Of a stretch of DNA of 64,000 nt, positions 18,465 to 26,715 are shown one piece after another (within the stretch, counting starts at the first letter, position 1; every line of letters begins with the position of its first letter). The notes under the pieces are model-generated. The model had not been told where the DNA came from. It searched no databases and was given only the letters and a program-made list of their open reading frames with translations. The translations under genes were made by a program, and so were the position numbers. This stretch comes from Thermosulfurimonas marina (GTDB lineage Bacteria > Desulfobacterota > Thermodesulfobacteria > Thermodesulfobacteriales > Thermodesulfobacteriaceae), in assembly GCF_012317585.1 (NCBI RefSeq), contig NZ_CP042909.1:124001-188000 (forward strand), written 5' to 3'.

Positions 18465-20045
18465 TTACAACTCCAAAGCCTTCACCGAGTGGACGTGCGG
18501 GAGATTTCGGAGAGCGGAAAGGACCTCCTCTGAGGGGGCTTGATCTACGGAAAGAAGGATTACATTGCGGCGCTTTTCCGGCTCCTGTCCTACATGCATA
18601 CGAGAAATGTTTAGACCGGCCTCTCCCAGAGTGACCCCGATGAGACCGATCACTCCGGGTCGGTCGTCGTTGTGGATATAAAGCATGTGCCCCTGAGGGA
18701 GGGCGTCCAGCTGAAAATCATTGATGCGTACGATACGCGGCTCCATCTTTCCGAAGATGGTCCCCGCAAGATAATTTTCTCCTCCTTTAAATTTAACGGT
18801 AACGCCGATGAGATTCAAAAAGTCCTCGGCGGTCTCGGTCTTGGATTCCAAAATCTTGATCCCCCTCTCCCGGGCCCGATAGAGGGCGTTGACGTAGTTC
18901 ACATCCTCGCGCAGGGCCCGAGAAAGAAGGCCTTTAAGAAGGGCCATGGTAAGGGGGGCGGTATCCAGACGGGAGACCTCTCCCTGATAGACGATGGAGA
19001 CTTCGGTGATGGGACCTTCGGCCAACTGAGCCTGCATAGCCCCCAGTTTTTCGGCCAGTACCAGATAGGGCTTCAAAACCTTCAGGGCCTCGGCGGAGAC
19101 CGAAGGCATATTCACCGCATTGCGCACCACTCCGTGCACCAAAAAGTCCACCACCTGGCTGGCCGCGGCCACAGCCACATTCTTCTGGGCCTCTAGGGTG
19201 GAGGCCCCCAGATGAGGGGTGCAGACGAAGTTTTCTAAAGAGAAAAGGGGGTGATCGGGATCCGGCGGTTCCTTCTCGAAAACATCCAGGGCCGCCCCCG
19301 CCACCTTTCCGCTTTTCATGGCCTCGTAAAGGGCCCTCTCGTCCACGATCCCCCCGCGGGCGCAGTTGATAACGAGCACCCCGTCTTTCATCTTGGCGAA
19401 GCTTTCGGCATTAAGCAGGTGGTAGGTCTCTTTCATCAGGGGAACATGGACGGTAATGATATCCGAGCGGGCGTAAAGTTCGTCCAGGGAGACCAGCTCC
19501 ACCCCCATCTCCGAGGCCCGCTCCGGGGTCACGTAAGGATCATAGGCGATGACCTTCATCTTGAGCCCCTGGGCCCTTTCCGCCACCACCGAGCCGATGC
19601 GTCCCAGCCCGATGATCCCCAGGGTCTTTCCCATGAGCTCGCGGCCCAGGAACTTCTTGCGCTCCCAGCGACCGGCCTTAAGGGAGGCCATGGCTTGAGG
19701 GACGTTGCGGGCCATGGCGAACATGAGGGCCAGGGTATGTTCGGCCGCGGAATTGGTGTTGCCCCCGGGACAGTTCATGACCACGATGCCCCGGCGGCTG
19801 GCCGCCTCCAGATCCACGTTGTCCAGCCCCGTACCCGCCCGGGCAATAACCTTGAGCCTTTCGGCGGCCTCGATAATTTCGGCCGTAAGCTTGGTGCCGC
19901 TACGGATAATGATGCCGTCGGCCTCCCGGATGGCCTCCTTGAGTTCCTCCGGGGAAAGACCCACCCGTTCTTCCACCTCCAATCCGGCCTTTTTCAGAAT
20001 TTCCAGACCTTCAGGAAGAAGAGGATCGGTTACCAGGACCTTCAT
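18465..20045 (-). CDS. serA: D-3-phosphoglycerate dehydrogenase
   Basis: A 526-residue enzyme of the long type: catalytic and Rossmann domains (GLGRIGSVVAERAQG at about 146-160, the Arg/Glu/His catalytic set including CTPHLGASTLEAQ), an intervening domain (about 320-450) and a C-terminal ACT domain (about 455-526) that normally senses serine. It catalyses the first step of serine synthesis, 3-phosphoglycerate to 3-phosphohydroxypyruvate. Its ATG overlaps the stop of the upstream aminotransferase by 4 nt, implying a joint pathway. Confidence 0.96.
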   Translation of the reverse strand: MKVLVTDPLLPEGLEILKKAGLEVEERVGLSPEELKEAIREADGIIIRSGTKLTAEIIEAAERLKVIARAGTGLDNVDLEAASRRGIVVMNCPGGNTNSAAEHTLALMFAMARNVPQAMASLKAGRWERKKFLGRELMGKTLGIIGLGRIGSVVAERAQGLKMKVIAYDPYVTPERASEMGVELVSLDELYARSDIITVHVPLMKETYHLLNAESFAKMKDGVLVINCARGGIVDERALYEAMKSGKVAGAALDVFEKEPPDPDHPLFSLENFVCTPHLGASTLEAQKNVAVAAASQVVDFLVHGVVRNAVNMPSVSAEALKVLKPYLVLAEKLGAMQAQLAEGPITEVSIVYQGEVSRLDTAPLTMALLKGLLSRALREDVNYVNALYRARERGIKILESKTETAEDFLNLIGVTVKFKGGENYLAGTIFGKMEPRIVRINDFQLDALPQGHMLYIHNDDRPGVIGLIGVTLGEAGLNISRMHVGQEPEKRRNVILLSVDQAPSEEVLSALRNLPHVHSVKALEL

Positions 20046-21199
20046 GCGTAGACCTCCTCCGCGTGCTCTCGAATAATCTCCAAGGCTCGGGCCACCCCGG
20101 CCCCTATTTTAACCGGCCAGCCCAGCTCCGAAAGGCCCACCTCTAGAGCAGAAAGGGCGAGCACTCCCTCGAGCGGGCTCTGGTGTCCCATGTGGGTGAT
20201 GCGCACCACCTTTCCCTTGAGCTGGCCCTGCCCTCCGGCGAGCACCACCCCGTAGCGCTTCCGCAGGAGCCTGGTGAGGGCCCCTCCGTCCACCCCTTCC
20301 GGGAGTTTGACCATGGTAAGGGCCTCACAGGGCACCCGAGGGAAGATCTCCAGCCCCAAGGCCAAAACTCCTTCCCTACAAGCCCGGGAGACCAAGGCGT
20401 AATGGGCAAAGAGTCTCTCAAGCCCGATCTTGCGTATGAGCTGCAGGGACTCTCGTAAAGAAAGAAGAAGAGAGACCGCCGGGGTGTAGGCCGTGGTTTC
20501 CTTTTGATAAGCCTTCCATTCCCGACGCAGATCAAAATAATATCTGGGGCTTTCGGCCTTTTCGACCCGCTCCCAGGCCCGCTCCGAAAGGGCCACAAAA
20601 GAAAGCCCCGGCGGAAGGGCCAGACTCTTCTGGCTCCCGGCCACCACCACATCGAGCCCCCATTCGTCCATGGGAAGAGGATAGACCCCTAGGGCGGAGA
20701 TGGCGTCCACCACCACTAGGGCTCCGGCCCGATGAGCCACTTCGGCCACCTCCCGCACCGGGTGCTTCACCCCCGTAGAGGTCTCGTGGGCCTGAAGGAG
20801 GATGGCCGCAACACCGGGGTTCTCCGAAAGGGCCCTTTCCACCGCCTCTGGAGAGACAGCCTCCCCCCAAGGAATATCCAGATACACGGGCTGGAGTCCG
20901 TAGGCCTCGGCAATCTCCCCCCAACGTTCTCCAAATTTCCCTCCCCGGACTACCAGGACCCGCTCTCCTGGAGAAAAGAGATTGGCCACCGCCGCCTCCA
21001 TGGCCCCGGTGCCCGAAGAGGCGAAGAAGAAGACAGGCCGCCGGGTCTGGAAGAGATACTGGAGGTCTTCGCGGATTTCGGAAAGAACGGCGGAAAACTC
21101 CGGGAGACGGTGATGGGGCGTAGGACGAGCTCCAGCCAACAACACCTCTGGGGCCACCGGTACCGGCCCGGGAGTAAAAAGGTGCCACTTCTGGAACAT
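20042..21199 (-). CDS. Class V aminotransferase (probable phosphoserine or serine-glyoxylate type)
   Basis: A 385-residue PLP enzyme of the alanine-glyoxylate/serine-pyruvate aminotransferase group. The opening LFTPGPVPVAPEVL, Asp165 (VVDAISALGVYP) and the PLP lysine K191 (AGSQKSLALPPGLSF) are visible. The tight coupling with serA suggests it supplies the second step of serine synthesis, transamination of 3-phosphohydroxypyruvate, as shown for relatives in archaea and some bacteria, though glyoxylate transamination is possible. It lies 55 nt after the Rrf2 regulator gene on the same strand. A GGAGG site precedes the ATG. Confidence 0.88.
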   Translation of the reverse strand: MFQKWHLFTPGPVPVAPEVLLAGARPTPHHRLPEFSAVLSEIREDLQYLFQTRRPVFFFASSGTGAMEAAVANLFSPGERVLVVRGGKFGERWGEIAEAYGLQPVYLDIPWGEAVSPEAVERALSENPGVAAILLQAHETSTGVKHPVREVAEVAHRAGALVVVDAISALGVYPLPMDEWGLDVVVAGSQKSLALPPGLSFVALSERAWERVEKAESPRYYFDLRREWKAYQKETTAYTPAVSLLLSLRESLQLIRKIGLERLFAHYALVSRACREGVLALGLEIFPRVPCEALTMVKLPEGVDGGALTRLLRKRYGVVLAGGQGQLKGKVVRITHMGHQSPLEGVLALSALEVGLSELGWPVKIGAGVARALEIIREHAEEVYA

Positions 21200-21254: not shown

Positions 21255-21713
21255 CTACCCCGAAGGGCTTGCGGATGCGGAAGAGGAGTCCATACGGGCC
21301 AGTCTTTCCTGATATTTCCGAGCCAGATCGGCAATGGTAATCCGGGAAAGGGTGTCCCGAATGACCTCGGTAAGGAGATCCCAGACGTCCCGGGTGGGAC
21401 AAACCGGGCTCATCTCACAGAGGTCGGGATAGCTAACGCAGGGGGTCACGGCCTCATCTCCTTCAAGAAGAGAGACCACCTCCCAAACGGTGATCTCCTC
21501 CGGGGGACGGGCCAGGAAGTAGCCCCCTTTGGCTCCTCGGTGGCTTTTGATCAGTCCCGCCTTTTTGAGAGGGATGATGAGTTGCTCCAGATACTTGACC
21601 GAAAGCTTCTGTTTTTTGGCAATTTCTCCCAGCTGAACCGGTCCCAGGTCGTGGTGTAAGGCCAACTCGACCAACATACGGGTGGCATACCTGCTTCGCG
21701 TGGTAATCCTCAT
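21255..21713 (-). CDS. Rrf2-family transcriptional regulator
   Basis: A 152-residue regulator with an N-terminal winged helix (TTRSRYATRMLVELAL, then KKQKLSVKYLEQLIIPLKKA, GLIKSHRGAKGGYFLARP) and three cysteines at 92, 99 and 105, close to the Fe-S ligands of IscR (92, 98, 104). It could thus bind an Fe-S cluster, or act like CymR as a cysteine-status sensor. It is divergent from metY-metX-metW-cysE-cysK and upstream of the serine genes, so sulfur amino-acid control is the likely role. The ATG has no ribosome site and lies 6 nt after a -10 box, suggesting a leaderless mRNA. Confidence 0.9.
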   Translation of the reverse strand: MRITTRSRYATRMLVELALHHDLGPVQLGEIAKKQKLSVKYLEQLIIPLKKAGLIKSHRGAKGGYFLARPPEEITVWEVVSLLEGDEAVTPCVSYPDLCEMSPVCPTRDVWDLLTEVIRDTLSRITIADLARKYQERLARMDSSSASASPSG

Positions 21714-21719
21714 AGCTTT

Positions 21720-21748
21720 TTTATAAACTTCAATGTCTAGCCTTTCAA
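21720..21748 (-). promoter_or_regulatory. Promoter of the Rrf2 regulator, probably leaderless
   Basis: On the minus strand TTGAAA (21748-21743), 17 nt, TATAAA (21725-21720). The start codon is at 21713, only 6 nt past the -10, so the predicted transcription start coincides with the ATG. No Shine-Dalgarno sequence is present. Confidence 0.6.
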
Positions 21749-21757
21749 TATCTACCC

Positions 21758-21786
21758 TTGCAATCTATACCAAGCCGGTATATATT
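21758..21786 (+). promoter_or_regulatory. Promoter of metY-cysK operon with palindromic operator
   Basis: TTGCAA (21758-21763), 17 nt, TATATT (21781-21786). A perfect inverted repeat TATACC-AAGCC-GGTATA (21766-21782) covers the spacer and the start of the -10, an ideal place for repression. The divergent Rrf2-family regulator is the natural candidate to bind it. The promoter is clear by eye; the operator is inferred. Confidence 0.6.
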
Positions 21787-21819
21787 CACAAAATAGATTT
21801 TTTCGCAAGGAGATCCAAG

Positions 21820-23073
21820 ATGAAAAATTGGCGGTTTCACACCCGGGTTATTCATGAAGGTTTACGTCCCGAGGACTGGGAAGGCGCTACCCTCCCGCCC
21901 ATCTACCAGACGGCCTCCCACCGTCATCCTACGGCCGAAAGCCTAAGTGCGGCCTTCGGGGGCCAGAGTGCGGACCACATCTACCTGCGTCTAAGCAACC
22001 CTACCAACCGCTTCCTAGAAGAAAAGCTGGCGGCCTTAGAGGGAGGGGCCGGAGCCATCCTGACTTCCTCCGGCATGGCGGCCATCGCCAACGCCTGCCT
22101 GGCCCTCCTGCGCCCGGGAGACGAATTCGTGGCCGGAAATTCCCTTTTTATGTCCACCTACGTGCTCTTCGCCAACATCTTTCCCAAATACGGTATTACC
22201 GCCCGCTTCGTGGAGCCCACGGACCTGGAGGCCCTAAAAGCGGCCCTCTCTCCCCGAACCCGGTTTATCTTCGTGGAGACCATCGGCAATCCCAAAATGG
22301 ATGTTCCAGATCTGGCGGCCCTCGCGGAGATCGCCCACGAAAACGGCCTCCCCCTCATCGTGGACAACACCCTAGCCACCCCTTACCTCTGCCGCCCCAT
22401 AGAACTGGGGGCAGATATCGTGATCCACTCCACCACCAAGTATCTCAGCGGCCACGGCTGCGCCACCGGCGGGGTTATCATCGACAGCGGCCGCTTCGAC
22501 TGGACCCAATCCCGGTTTGCCGAGGACTTCAAGCCCTTTGTCGACCGCAGAGGGCCTCTGGCTTATCTCGATAAGGTCTGGCGGGAATATCACATCAATT
22601 TCGGGACCACTCAGGCCCCCTTCCACGCCTATCTCACCGCCCTGGGTCTCGACACTCTGGCCCTGCGCATGGAGCGCCATTGCGAAAACGCCCTCAAGGT
22701 GGCCCAATTCCTGAGTGAACAACCCGAGGTGCAATGGGTACGTTACCCGGGTCTTCCAGACCATCCCCACCGAGAGGTGGCGGAAAGGCAGTTCCAGGGA
22801 AAGGGATTCGGAGGGCTCCTCACCTTCGGCCTCAAGGATCAGGAGACCTGCTTTCGCTTCATCCGGAATCTTCGTCTGGTTTACCATCTGGCCAATCTTG
22901 GGGACTGCAAGACCCTGATTATTCATCCTTACTCCAGCCAGTATCTGGCCTTTCCGGAAGATCTCAAACGCTCCCTTTCTATTACTCCGGATCTCTTGCG
23001 GCTTTCGGTAGGCCTCGAGGACGTGGAGGACATCTGCGAAGACCTTCGACAGGCCTTGGACAAGGTAAAATGA
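21820..23073 (+). CDS. metY: O-acetylhomoserine sulfhydrylase (PLP-dependent)
   Basis: A 417-residue enzyme of the Cys/Met-metabolism PLP family. PLP lysine K207 lies in [11 protein letters not shown]; other blocks are [11 protein letters not shown] and [11 protein letters not shown]. The [12 protein letters not shown] segment and length favour MetY (sulfide plus O-acetylhomoserine to homocysteine) over cystathionine gamma-synthase, and the next gene makes O-acetylhomoserine. The frame opens at 21733, but the ATG at 21820 has AAGGAGA upstream and begins at the conserved [11 protein letters not shown]. It is the first gene of a five-gene sulfur amino-acid operon. Confidence 0.9.
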
Positions 23074-24242
23074 GCGAGTATATCACCCACGATCAGCGCG
23101 GACGGTCCGTAGGAATCGTCCAGAAAAAGTACTTCACCTTCGCCTACCCTCCGGATCTCTTTCCGCTGGAGTGCGGGGCCAAACTGGGGCCCATCACCCT
23201 GGCCTACGAAACTTACGGCCAACTCAACGCCGACCGCAGCAACGCCATCCTCATCCTGCATGCCCTCTCCGGGGACTCCCACGTGGCGGGCTACTACTCC
23301 AAGGACGACCCCAAGCCCGGCTGGTGGGACTTCATGGTGGGGCCGGGAAAGGCCATCGACACCAACAAGTATTTCGTGATCTGCTCCAACATCCTGGGGG
23401 GCTGCGCCGGAAGCACCGGCCCCTCCTCCATCAACCCGCGCACCGGAAAGCCCTACGCCCTGGACTTTCCCTTCGTGACCATTGGAGACATGGTAAGGGC
23501 CCAGAAGGTCCTCATCGAGCATCTGGGTATCCGGAAATTGCTCGCGGTTATCGGGGGATCTCTTGGAGGCATGCAGGTCCTCGAATGGGCCCTGCGCTAC
23601 CCGGAGATGGTGCATGCGGCTATCCCCATCGCCACCACTACCCGGCACTCGGCCCTGGCTATCGCCTTCAACGAGGTGGCTCGACAGGCCATCATGGCCG
23701 ACCCCAACTGGCGTGGGGGAAATTATTATGACGGACCTCGGCCGGAGATGGGCTTGGCCGTAGCCCGCATGATCGGCCACATCACCTATCTTTCGGATCG
23801 GGCCCTGCGGCGCAAGTTCGGCCGGCGCCTCCAGAACAAGAGCCAGTTCTCTTTTGGCTTCGACGTGGATTTTCAGGTGGAAAGCTACCTCCGCTATCAG
23901 GGTCGCAAGTTTGTGGAACGCTTCGACGCCAACTCCTTCCTTTACATTACCAAGGCCGCGGACTACTTCGACGTCAAGCGCCAGCACGGGGAAGGCTCCC
24001 TGGTGAAGGCCTTTTCCAAGGCCCGAGCCCGTTTTCTGGTGATCTCCTTTTCCTCAGACTGGCTCTATCCTACCTACCAGTCCCGGGAGATGGTCAAGGC
24101 CATGAAGAAAAACGGTCTTGACGTGAGTTTCTGTGAGATCGAGGCGGACTGGGGGCACGACGCCTTCCTCATTCCCAACGAAAAATTCGAAAACCTGGTG
24201 GCCGCTTTTCTGGAGAGGGTAAGCCGTGAATTCGAACCTTAA
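23070..24242 (+). CDS. metX: Homoserine O-acetyltransferase
   Basis: A 390-residue alpha/beta-hydrolase-fold enzyme that acylates homoserine from acetyl-CoA. The nucleophile serine is in GGSLGGMQ (about 163), with Asp in SSDWLYP and His in WGHDAFL near the C-terminus. The ATG at 23070 overlaps the metY stop (ATGA). The frame extends far upstream inside metY, which is rejected. Its product is the MetY substrate. Succinyl- versus acetyl-CoA preference cannot be settled by eye. Confidence 0.94.
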
Positions 24243-24861
24243 GGATCTGCGCTATGACCTCCAGATCATCGCCTCCTGGATCGAACCCGGGGCCCGGGTC
24301 ATCGATCTGGGCTGTGGCTCCGGGGATCTCCTGCTCCATCTCAAAGAAACCAAAGGAGTCCGGGGAATTGGCATTGAAAAGGACGAGGCCGAAGTCCGGG
24401 AGGCCATCCGGAAGGGCCTCACGGTCATCCAGGGAGACCTCAATGAGGAGGTCCGGGATTATCCTGACCAGAGTTTCGATTACGTAATCCTCAGCCAGAC
24501 CCTCCAGCAGATTTATGAGCCGCATACCCTCCTCAAAGAACTCCTGCGCATCGGCCGCCGGGTCATCGTGAGCTTTCCCAATTTTGCCCATTGGACCATT
24601 CGCCTGGATCTCCTCCTTCACGGTCGGGCCCCCAAGAATCCTCAGCTGCCTTATGAATGGTACGACACCCCTAACATCCGGGTAATCACCATCCGGGACT
24701 TCCGAAAATTCATCGAAGACCTGGGCTATCAGGTCCTGAAAGAGGCCCCGGTAAGCACTTATAACCGAGACCGCCAGGGAAAGATGGTCCGGAGATGGGC
24801 CAATCTCCGGGCCACTTACGGAATTTTTATGGTGGGGAAAAGAGATGCCGGAAAGACTTAA
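24226..24861 (+). CDS. metW: Methionine biosynthesis protein MetW
   Basis: A 211-residue protein with a methyltransferase fold ([12 protein letters not shown], about 25-36) and the MetW-specific segment [21 protein letters not shown] followed by [10 protein letters not shown]. MetW commonly accompanies MetX and is required for or stimulates homoserine acylation in several bacteria; its own reaction is not settled. The GTG start at 24226 lies inside metX (17-nt overlap). Confidence 0.92.
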
Positions 24862-25789
24862 AGTGAGCTGGTACGGAGAACTCCATTCCGTGGTCCAGAC
24901 CTTGGCCTCTACTTGGGAGGAAAATTGCCGGGAGGACCCGGGGCCGCTGCCCATCCCCCGCCAAGAAGAAGTAATCCGTATTCTCTACCGCACCCGAAGG
25001 ATCCTTTTTCCGGAATACTTCTCGACCGCCAACCTCAACTCTGAAAATCTCCAGTATTATCTAGGAGAGGAGCTTAGCCGCCTTTTTGAAGAACTGTCCC
25101 AGCAAATTAATCTGGCCTTTCGTTACCAGGCCCTGACCCGCCAAAAAGATCCTCTTGAGAGGCCTCTCCAGGGGGAAGAATTGGCCCTCCGATTCATCAA
25201 ACGGCTTCCAGAGGTGAAAAGACTTCTCCTCACGGACGTGGAAGCAGCCTACATGGGAGATCCTGCGGCCAAAAGTCCCCAGGAGGTCATCTTTTGCTAT
25301 CCGGGCTTCTTGGCCATCACCATCTACCGCATAGCCCATGAACTTTACCGTCTAGGGGTACCCTATCTTCCCCGGATGATGACCGAACAGGCCCATAGCC
25401 TTACCGGGATCGATATCCACCCCGGAGCCACCATTGGGGAAAGCTTTTTTATTGACCACGGGACCGGGGTGGTCATCGGAGAGACCACGATAATCGGCAA
25501 CCGGGTACGCCTTTATCAGGGGGTGACCCTGGGGGCCCTTTCCGTGCCCAAGGAGGCGGCGGAAGAACTGCGTTTCCGCAAGCGCCACCCCACCATTGAA
25601 GACGACGTCATCATCTACGCCAACGCCACCATCCTGGGAGGAGAAACGGTCATCGGAGCCCGATCGGTCATCGGAGGGAACGTCTGGCTTACCGAAAGTG
25701 TGCCCCCGGATACCAAGGTCTTTCTCAAAAAACCCGAATTGCATGTCCTGCCTCGCCGGACGAAAAAGCCCCCTAGGAGGAGCGGATGA
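24845..25789 (+). CDS. cysE: Serine O-acetyltransferase
   Basis: A 314-residue enzyme, the EpsC-like long type, making O-acetylserine from serine and acetyl-CoA. An N-terminal helical domain (about 1-175) precedes left-handed beta-helix hexapeptides ([38 protein letters not shown], about 185-225) with the catalytic Asp-His pair. It overlaps metW by 17 nt and cysK by 4 nt. Its substrate serine would come from the divergent serA operon. Confidence 0.94.
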
Positions 25790-26715
25790 TTTACGAAGGT
25801 GTCACTCAGCTTATCGGAAAAACCCCTCTAGTGCGCCTCAAGCGCCTGGCGGAAAACCTGGATGTGGAAATATACGGTAAACTCGAATCCCAGAATCCCC
25901 TCTCCAGCGTAAAAGACCGCATCGGCTGGGCCATGATTGAGGCCGCCGAAAGGCAAGGCCTTATCGGACCAGGGACCACCATCGTGGAGCCCACCAGCGG
26001 CAACACAGGTATCGCTTTGGCCTTCGTGTGTGCCGAAAAGGGATATCCTCTGGTGCTCACCATGCCGGAGACCATGAGCCTCGAAAGGCGGGCCATCCTC
26101 AAACACTTTGGGGCCCGGCTGGTCCTCACTCCCGGGAAACTGGGGATGCGGGGAGCGGTAGAAAGGGCCCGGGAACTGCTCCAAGAAATCCCGGGAGCTT
26201 ACATGCCGGACCAATTCTCCAATCCGGCTAATCCGGAAATCCATCGGCGGACCACGGCCGAGGAGATCTGGCAAGACACCCAGGGCCGGGTGGACCTCCT
26301 GGTGGCCGGGGTAGGCACTGGAGGGACCATTACCGGGGTCTCGGAGGTCCTCAAGGCCCGCAGACCCTCCTTTAAGGCTATAGCGGTGGAACCCGCAGAG
26401 TCGCCGGTTCTGTCCGGAGGGCCGCCCGGACCTCACAAAATTCAGGGAATCGGGGCGGGCTTTGTGCCCCCCATTCTTAATCTAAAGGTCATCGACGAGA
26501 TCGTTCGGGTGAAATCTGAAGAGGCTATAGAGACTGCCCGGAGGTTGGCCCGGGAGGAGGCCCTCCTCTGCGGGATCTCCTCCGGAGCGGCGGTCTGGGC
26601 GGCCTTGCAGGTGGCCCGGAGGCCGGAAAATAAAGGAAAAGTAATGGTGGTTATCCTTCCAGACACCGGCGAGCGCTATCTCAGTACCGAACTCTTCAAT
26701 CCTTCTTCCGATTAA
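25786..26715 (+). CDS. cysK: Cysteine synthase A (O-acetylserine sulfhydrylase)
   Basis: A 309-residue PLP enzyme that combines O-acetylserine with sulfide to cysteine. PLP lysine K43 is in SSVKDRIG; the substrate loop [12 protein letters not shown] (about 68-79) and phosphate-binding [11 protein letters not shown] (about 178-188) are typical. It is the last gene of the operon, coupled to cysE by ATGA overlap. In sulfide-rich organisms this direct sulfhydrylation route is expected. Confidence 0.95.

Follow-up and report, generated by a model that had tools for sequence, protein, structure and literature searches.

What is sensed between an rrf2 regulator gene and the methionine and cysteine synthesis genes that diverge from it in Thermosulfurimonas marina, and how far does the control exerted from there extend? 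In model bacteria, cysteine synthesis (CysB or CymR) and Fe–S cluster assembly (IscR) are mostly placed under separate regulators. The window, by which we mean the whole 64,000-nucleotide stretch of DNA analyzed here, comes from an organism that, like its relatives, is probably a thermophilic sulfur-metabolizing bacterium. An earlier note, made from the sequence alone, had read the intergenic region as a bidirectional control region at which one sensor of Fe–S or cysteine status coordinates the supply of serine with sulfide fixation.

Family profiles bear out the gene identities on which that reading was based, with rrf2 divergent from metY–metX–metW–cysE–cysK, and agt and serA located behind rrf2 (table 1). 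One weak terminator-like stem (21263–21244) is found in the gap between rrf2 and agt, overlapping the rrf2 stop; such stems are about equally common in the window (16) and in shuffled sequences (12.4). A riboswitch at the met/cys control region was considered and rejected, since at Rfam gathering thresholds the window yields three tRNAs only.

Table 1. Genes, promoters, and predicted operator sites at the rrf2–metY locus, in coordinates of the window.
Feature	Position	Strand	Description	Evidence
serA	18465–20045	−	Phosphoglycerate dehydrogenase; overlaps agt end	TIGR01327, 696.9 bits, above cut-off
agt	20042–21199	−	Class V aminotransferase; possibly cotranscribed downstream of rrf2	
rrf2	21255–21713	−	Rrf2-family regulator, 152 aa, winged helix-turn-helix, CX6CX5C	PF02082, TIGR00738
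rrf2 promoter	21720–21748	−	TTGAAA-17-TATAAA	TTGAAA 21748–21743, TATAAA 21725–21720; −10 ends 6 nt before ATG
Predicted secondary site, centre 21744	21731–21752	+	30 bp (2 × 15) from main site; overlaps rrf2 −35	11.0 bits, second-best of the window
Predicted weak secondary site, centre 21759	21746–21767	+	15 bp from main site	3.7 bits, on grid
metY promoter	21758–21786	+	TTGCAA-17-TATATT	Promoter scan; TTGCAA 21758–21763, TATATT 21781–21786
Main predicted operator, centre 21774	21761–21787	.	27 bp; contains TATACCAAGCCGGTATA	15.96-bit motif hit
Predicted secondary site, centre 21789	21781–21802	−	15 bp downstream of main site; overlaps metY −10	8.4 bits
metY	21820–23073	+	O-acetylhomoserine sulfhydrylase family	TIGR01326 best family, 453.2 bits, below cut-off 495.1
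metX	23070–24242	+	Homoserine O-acyltransferase	NF001209, 559 bits, above cut-off
metW	24226–24861	+		TIGR02081, 244.3 bits, above cut-off
cysE	24845–25789	+	cysE/epsC-type serine O-acetyltransferase	NF041874, 155.6 bits, above cut-off
cysK	25786–26715	+	Cysteine synthase	TIGR01139, 466.2 bits, above cut-off

Both promoters have the 17-nt spacers described for them before. The metY promoter recurs with identical hexamers and spacing in the related genomes G002/G005 and G025. Its rrf2 counterpart matches the hexamers at 10 of 12 places, and is absent from the promoter-scan list because the scan accepts only a −10 that ends in T; read from the upstream stretches, TTGNAA-17-TATAAA again precedes rrf2 in G002/G005 and G025. 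In the window's own genome (G000) as well as in G002/G005 and G025, the rrf2 −10 hexamer TATAAA ends 6–7 nt ahead of the ATG and no ribosome-binding site is visible, which makes a leaderless rrf2 mRNA probable.

The perfect palindrome TATACC-N5-GGTATA that had been reported over the met/cys promoter is found at 21766–21782 (TATACCAAGCCGGTATA, zero mismatches), lying over the metY spacer and the initial two bases of its −10. Further exact copies elsewhere in the genome, which the earlier note had proposed to look for, did not turn up: The 1,763,258-bp genome contains the exact pattern at this one place. Allowing up to three mismatches, the window contains 18 matches (7.85 ± 2.96 in shuffles), 17 of them looser and scattered. 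With two mismatches the genome gives 31 forward matches compared with 20 for the reversed control, which is too loose to define a regulon, and this search was therefore dropped in favor of a learned motif.

For this motif, the 140 matches to rrf2 yielded 118 distinct upstream regions, of which 93 remained without the window's order and near relations, and 65 were nonredundant. The motif derived de novo from these 65 regions, to which the window contributed nothing, is TAAACTATAGTAATTTGATATA, with a log-likelihood of 212 (60 starts); three shuffled sets (30 starts each) reached 86, 81, and 77. When both strands of the 64 kb are scanned, its best hit is the palindrome (21761–21782, 15.96 bits); the second and third hits are also within the rrf2/metY intergenic region, and the best hit elsewhere reaches 10.3 bits. 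The held-out orthologs score 14.75 bits (L003) and 17.4 bits (L129). Support among Thermodesulfatator-type genes is mixed, as the scores of their rrf2 upstream regions (L006–L013) range from 2.1 to 14.7 bits. At locus L014, with an Rrf2 47% identical, there is no site beside rrf2 (−11.5 bits), yet in that genome the nifS region scores 15.2 bits. Eleven listed distant Rrf2 genes (L020–L030) gave 6.3 to 20.0 bits in ten cases, with the maximum in L022, and −2.6 in L028; these sites were excluded as support because an AT-rich background inflates the scores.

The useful symmetry of the main site is TATAC-N7-GTATA inside the 27-bp operator (21761–21787), rather than TATACC-N5-GGTATA. For an analysis of the spacing between sites, we started from the top-scoring site of each of 84 loci, kept 57 (at least 14 bits, enough flank, no N), and retained 43 after removal of near-duplicates. 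The symmetrized consensus over these 43 nonredundant sites is TAaTcTATActAaatTagTATAgAtTA, and their arms agree at 5.3 of nine pairs, compared with 2.5 at control centres. A second match of more than 5 bits lies at exactly +15 or −15 bp from 20 of these 43 sites, that of the window among them; in 200 rounds with shuffled flanks, such a neighbor was present at 1.15 sites on average and at 4 at most. Other offsets between 16 and 40 bp have shares of 0 to 2%, except for 7% at −18, and closer offsets, which overlap the main site, peak at 14% (offset 5), with 5% at offset 13. The positive scores in the window follow the 15-bp grid (centres 21744, 21759, 21774, and 21789, with 11.0, 3.7, 16.0, and 8.4 bits, respectively), with one off-grid positive value of 1.4 at 21802, and a 15-nt direct repeat was detected at the secondary site 21731–21752. 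Steps of 15 bp correspond to about 1.5 helical turns; adjacent dimers would therefore face opposite sides of the DNA and could bind cooperatively.

To place the locus among its relatives, we considered 41 genomes (the window's own and 40 relatives). An Rrf2 match of some kind is found in 38 of these, and a close rrf2 ortholog (at least 65% identity) in 12 including the window's own; a close metY (at least 81%) is restricted to G000, G002, G005, and G025, with a distant one (39%) in G040, and cysE matches are present in seven genomes. As in the window, rrf2 is divergent from metY in G002, G005, and G025, and the upstream stretches contain TTGCAATC-yATAy-N7-GTATATATT, with an unchanged register relative to the promoter. 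Conservation upstream of metY, on which the earlier note had staked its reading, gives a mixed result: The exact letters of the palindrome are not kept, with a single mismatch in G025 and a larger number in G002/G005, whereas these three relatives of the order, which have metY beside rrf2, retain the operator at the same promoter position. What the relatives keep is the predicted operator, not the palindrome letter for letter.

Five loci have rrf2 or nifS–rrf2 divergent from a close metY (L046, L047, L055, L129, and L130; L046 and L047 are near-identical at the metY/rrf2 locus), and in each of them no other site of the locus scores higher. In L055, the locus of a distant relative whose regulator is 65% identical to that of the window, a single site lies between metY (of metYXW–cysEK) and nifS–rrf2–nifU, so that the met/cys operon and the Fe–S operon share one predicted site. 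Among 80 named loci, sites are found upstream of nifS in many nifS–rrf2–nifU groups and none in some other loci; in L056 the site is located between cysE and rrf2. The operator class and an Rrf2 homolog also precede genes for a flavoprotein and a DUF1641 protein in L080, L085, L087, L103, L107, L108, L109, L121, and L125, and L102 has the same flavoprotein arrangement without the DUF1641 label. The flavoprotein is a Pyr_redox_2 protein with weak likeness to sulfide dehydrogenases (one protein of each kind was scanned), and in most of the rrf2–flavoprotein loci the site is located at rrf2.

Upstream regions of individual genes were then scored in stretches separated from the training regions by roughly 1 kb or more, with random segments of the same loci as control. 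At a threshold of 14 bits, which was set after the loci had been viewed, and against random segments that may contain true sites, a site was recorded in 11 of 15 nifS upstream regions (random, 21/300), in 2 of 14 upstream regions of the sulfide-dehydrogenase-like flavoprotein gene (random, 6/280), and in 2 of 12 of cysE (random, 11/240). As only two cysE regions reach 14 bits, cysE is generally not under a site of its own. The held-out motif, the nifS-region test, and the metY-divergent loci together support, at the level of sequence, the palindrome as the operator of this Rrf2 clade, at a position from which the met/cys promoter could be blocked. Very probably, then, the neighboring Rrf2 regulator binds here.

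The extent of the regulon within the genome was addressed by pattern matching. TMTAC-N7-GTAKA is found exactly at three places: the window site, 975725–975741, and 86893–86909. The place at 975725–975741 (18.1 bits) is directly upstream of tusA–nifS–nifU (TusA, class V aminotransferase, and NifU_N according to Pfam), where the site lies across the −10 end and the likely transcription start, and 86893–86909 is within an ORF, with no motif hit above 8 bits there. The extended pattern AATCTMTAC-N7-GTAKAGATT with up to three mismatches also has three places, namely the rrf2/metY and tusA–nifS promoters with one mismatch each, and a third, with three mismatches, in an ORF that is lepA-like by eye. 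Since reversed control patterns match about as often (four places against three for the short pattern, two against three for the extended one), the positions and not the match numbers carry the evidence. A looser variant, AATCYATAY-N7-GTATR with two mismatches, gave 16 rows (nine forward, seven reverse) against 3 + 3 for the control, and 12 places outside the rrf2/metY intergenic region; among the 11 of these inspected, nine are inside ORFs (three transposase-like), one is the tusA promoter, and one is 821751. This last two-mismatch relative of the operator (G000:C1:821751-821771, L176) is positioned where a sensor-like ORF begins. A single weak motif-like string recurs at G000:C1 589945, 1397758, 1405556, and 1658783; it is located in a transposase-like ORF in the three copies examined and was treated as chance. 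A selenoprotein, considered for a match across a TGA in a second NifS-like gene, was rejected, the TGA being the end of the gene.

A predicted operator class of one Rrf2 clade is present both at the met/cys promoter and at an Fe–S assembly promoter, the latter holding the only other strong site that the patterns recovered in the genome. The nifS regions of G002, G003, and G005 likewise have a site of 13.4–15.2 bits. No operator was found at the nifS operon of G025, which has a different Rrf2 gene in front (a tusA-like gene and nifS follow it at G025:C1:1075700-1077600, L188); judged by this gene order, the regulator of the Fe–S operon has been exchanged between relatives of one order. The nifS regions of eight Thermodesulfatator-type genomes reach 9.9 bits at most. 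With both these and G025 lacking a strong site, the Fe–S link is not universal even close to the window. The suggestion that the sensor responds to Fe–S or cysteine status gains weight because the second strong site precedes tusA–nifS–nifU and because L055 has its shared site; cysteine and methionine synthesis are thus probably tuned by a single sensor together with Fe–S cluster building.

In IscR, the three cluster cysteines have the spacing CX5CX5C, and the fourth cluster ligand is a histidine three residues past the last cysteine. The Rrf2 protein of the window has the three cysteines that the earlier note called IscR-like (C92, C99, and C105), and they are invariant in all 13 aligned sequences, but their spacing is CX6CX5C and an arginine (R108) stands at the place of the histidine. 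The protein belongs to the Rrf2 superfamily (TIGR00738, 137.5 vs. 73.3 bits; PF02082, 134.9 vs. 30 bits), and its structure model, of good confidence (mean pLDDT 85.6), has a winged-helix Rrf2-like layout. As it stays below all three curated cut-offs for IscR (TIGR02010, 114.5 vs. 207.55 bits), CymR (NF047409, 110.2 vs. 195 bits), and NsrR (NF008240, 41.5 vs. 182 bits), it was assigned to none of them. The genome encodes a second Rrf2 protein, 35% identical (L209:1926-2363; G000:C1:549464-549862), which retains CX6CX5C followed by PTH; its neighbors are, by eye, a threonine-synthase-like gene and cytochrome bd oxidase-like genes.

The systems compared here are taken from the openly available parts of the cited papers. 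With IscR of Escherichia coli the regulator shares the Rrf2 fold, three cysteines, a promoter-overlapping site, and an Fe–S assembly operon as predicted target; it differs in the CX6CX5C spacing without the histidine, in the location of its gene outside the nifS operon and beside met/cys genes, and in an equivalog score far below the cut-off. The IscR type-1 operator, ATASYYGACTRWWWYAGTCRRSTAT (PMC3899308), is of near-equal length (about 25–27 bp) and has the same ACT-N5-AGT core, the geometry being shared at the tusA–nifS–nifU site, whereas the IscR core reads GACT and that of the window's clade TACT. RisR of Myxococcus xanthus is an Rrf2 repressor of Fe–S assembly operons whose sites lie over promoter hexamers (PMC9973013). 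Target type, site placement, and the N7 spacing of the palindrome agree with our case, but the RisR core GAC-N7-GTC is not matched (TAC-N7-GTA here), its cysteines are C92/C102/C108, and the available part of that paper names no met/cys targets. CymR of Bacillus and Staphylococcus represses cysteine synthesis genes including cysK (PMC2869319, PMC3828012, PMC9338935), as the regulator would do here; B. subtilis CymR differs in that it binds no cluster and works with CysK and O-acetylserine, and its equivalog cut-off is missed here. In Clostridium perfringens, the Rrf2 gene of Cpe1786 is next to iscS–iscU, and the group is induced in cysteine limitation; in the accessible text, this tie of cysteine supply to Fe–S assembly comes closest to a published indication of such coupling (PMC2940859). 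GSU1639 of Geobacter sulfurreducens is also an Rrf2 protein with cluster cysteines, with a proposed role in coupling iron to Fe–S assembly, and differs in being said to be controlled by Fur (PMC7726332). In the open-access literature, with subscription papers, supplements, and regulon databases outside the scope, we found no published description of a TAC-N7-GTA operator in the Desulfobacterota. Judged by these likenesses, the protein would work most like IscR or RisR, with cysteine genes added as in CymR.

We regard it as likely that the region is an operator–promoter switch of an IscR-like Rrf2 repressor, coupling cysteine and homocysteine synthesis, Fe–S assembly, and the expression of the repressor itself. 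That the Rrf2 protein would read the 27-bp operator at 21761–21787 is well supported by the motif analyses, and its predicted action in trans on the operator upstream of tusA–nifS–nifU is supported as well. Judging from its position, a dimer bound over the metY spacer and −10 would shut off metY–metX–metW–cysE–cysK, and the weak sites at 15-bp steps would reach the rrf2 −35, leading to autoregulation. By analogy with the family, the three invariant cysteines would hold an Fe–S cluster and the cluster-loaded form would repress; a shortage of clusters, through cysteine, iron, or redox limitation, would then end repression, giving more cysteine and homocysteine as well as more cysteine desulfurase and scaffold.

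A CymR-type switch, in which cysteine is sensed through a complex with CysK and O-acetylserine and without any Fe–S cluster, would account for cysE and cysK being within the controlled operon and for rrf2 homologs near cysE–cysK or cysK in several other Desulfobacterota loci; the best PDB sequence matches of the protein include CymR structures, and CymR is described as acting through CysK in the available parts of two papers (PMC2940859, PMC3828012). We nevertheless consider this unlikely, given the CymR equivalog score, the second strong site in front of Fe–S assembly genes, and three cysteines invariant in the 13 aligned sequences, whereas CymR of B. subtilis is reported as cluster-free in the accessible text of PMC9338935. 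It is very improbable that another factor, such as the second Rrf2 of the genome, reads the operator with the neighboring rrf2 as a bystander. Such a protein exists, and nifS and rrf2 are separately located in the window's genome, but the upstream regions behind the motif belong to related rrf2 genes of distant species, the second Rrf2 protein is 35% identical, and no hit above 8 bits is found in the 4.5-kb stretch around its gene.

The direction of control and the reality of the site can be weighed in the same manner. Some Rrf2 proteins activate, as described for apo-IscR of E. coli on suf in the available part of PMC9973013, and the regulator could activate metY from the operator instead of repressing it; we give this very little credence, because the site lies over the metY spacer and −10, and over the −10 end and likely start at tusA, and RisR has been proposed to block RNA polymerase from such positions (PMC9973013, available part). 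Least credible of all is that the palindrome arose by chance in an AT-rich promoter. It does overlap promoter elements, TATA-like strings favor such patterns, and AT-rich genomes of the family give high motif scores without other support (as in L022), but the top hit of the held-out motif in 64 kb is the palindrome, the extended pattern finds two promoter places only in the genome, and relatives have the site in the same register.

Within the preferred reading of an IscR-like repressor switch, the met/cys part of the proposed coordination is supported, whereas a serine link finds no support as a general design. Of 11 genomes checked, 10 have agt, and serA adjoins agt in all nine other than the window's. 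In the loci of these nine relatives no rrf2 was found within 1.5 kb on either side of agt–serA, and the best motif score there is 7.3 bits (7.0 in front of agt, in L215). Linkage of rrf2 and agt is seen, among the genomes examined, in the window's genome only, and rrf2 of G025 is followed by a convergent unrelated gene, by eye for a methyl-accepting-type protein. As agt–serA of the relatives has neither rrf2 nor a site, and as the neighbor in G025 is unrelated, the serine connection appears to be either special to the window's genome or accidental; coregulation of agt–serA is possible in this genome and not common to the relatives examined.

For the organism, this means that a single Rrf2 protein seems to control both a supplier of sulfur compounds (metYXW–cysEK) and a user (tusA–nifS–nifU). 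More tentatively, and with some doubt, the same may apply to an Rrf2 clade across the Desulfobacterota, with one operator class (a TAC-N7-GTA core within 27 bp), often accompanied by sites at 15-bp steps, and with an Fe–S cluster that would tie cysteine and homocysteine synthesis, cysteine desulfurase and, in other genera, the sulfide-dehydrogenase-like flavoprotein to one signal of Fe–S supply. The stepping of sites by 15 bp is a concrete, testable structural feature of this predicted system, and the operator provides a search key for the regulon across the Desulfobacterota.
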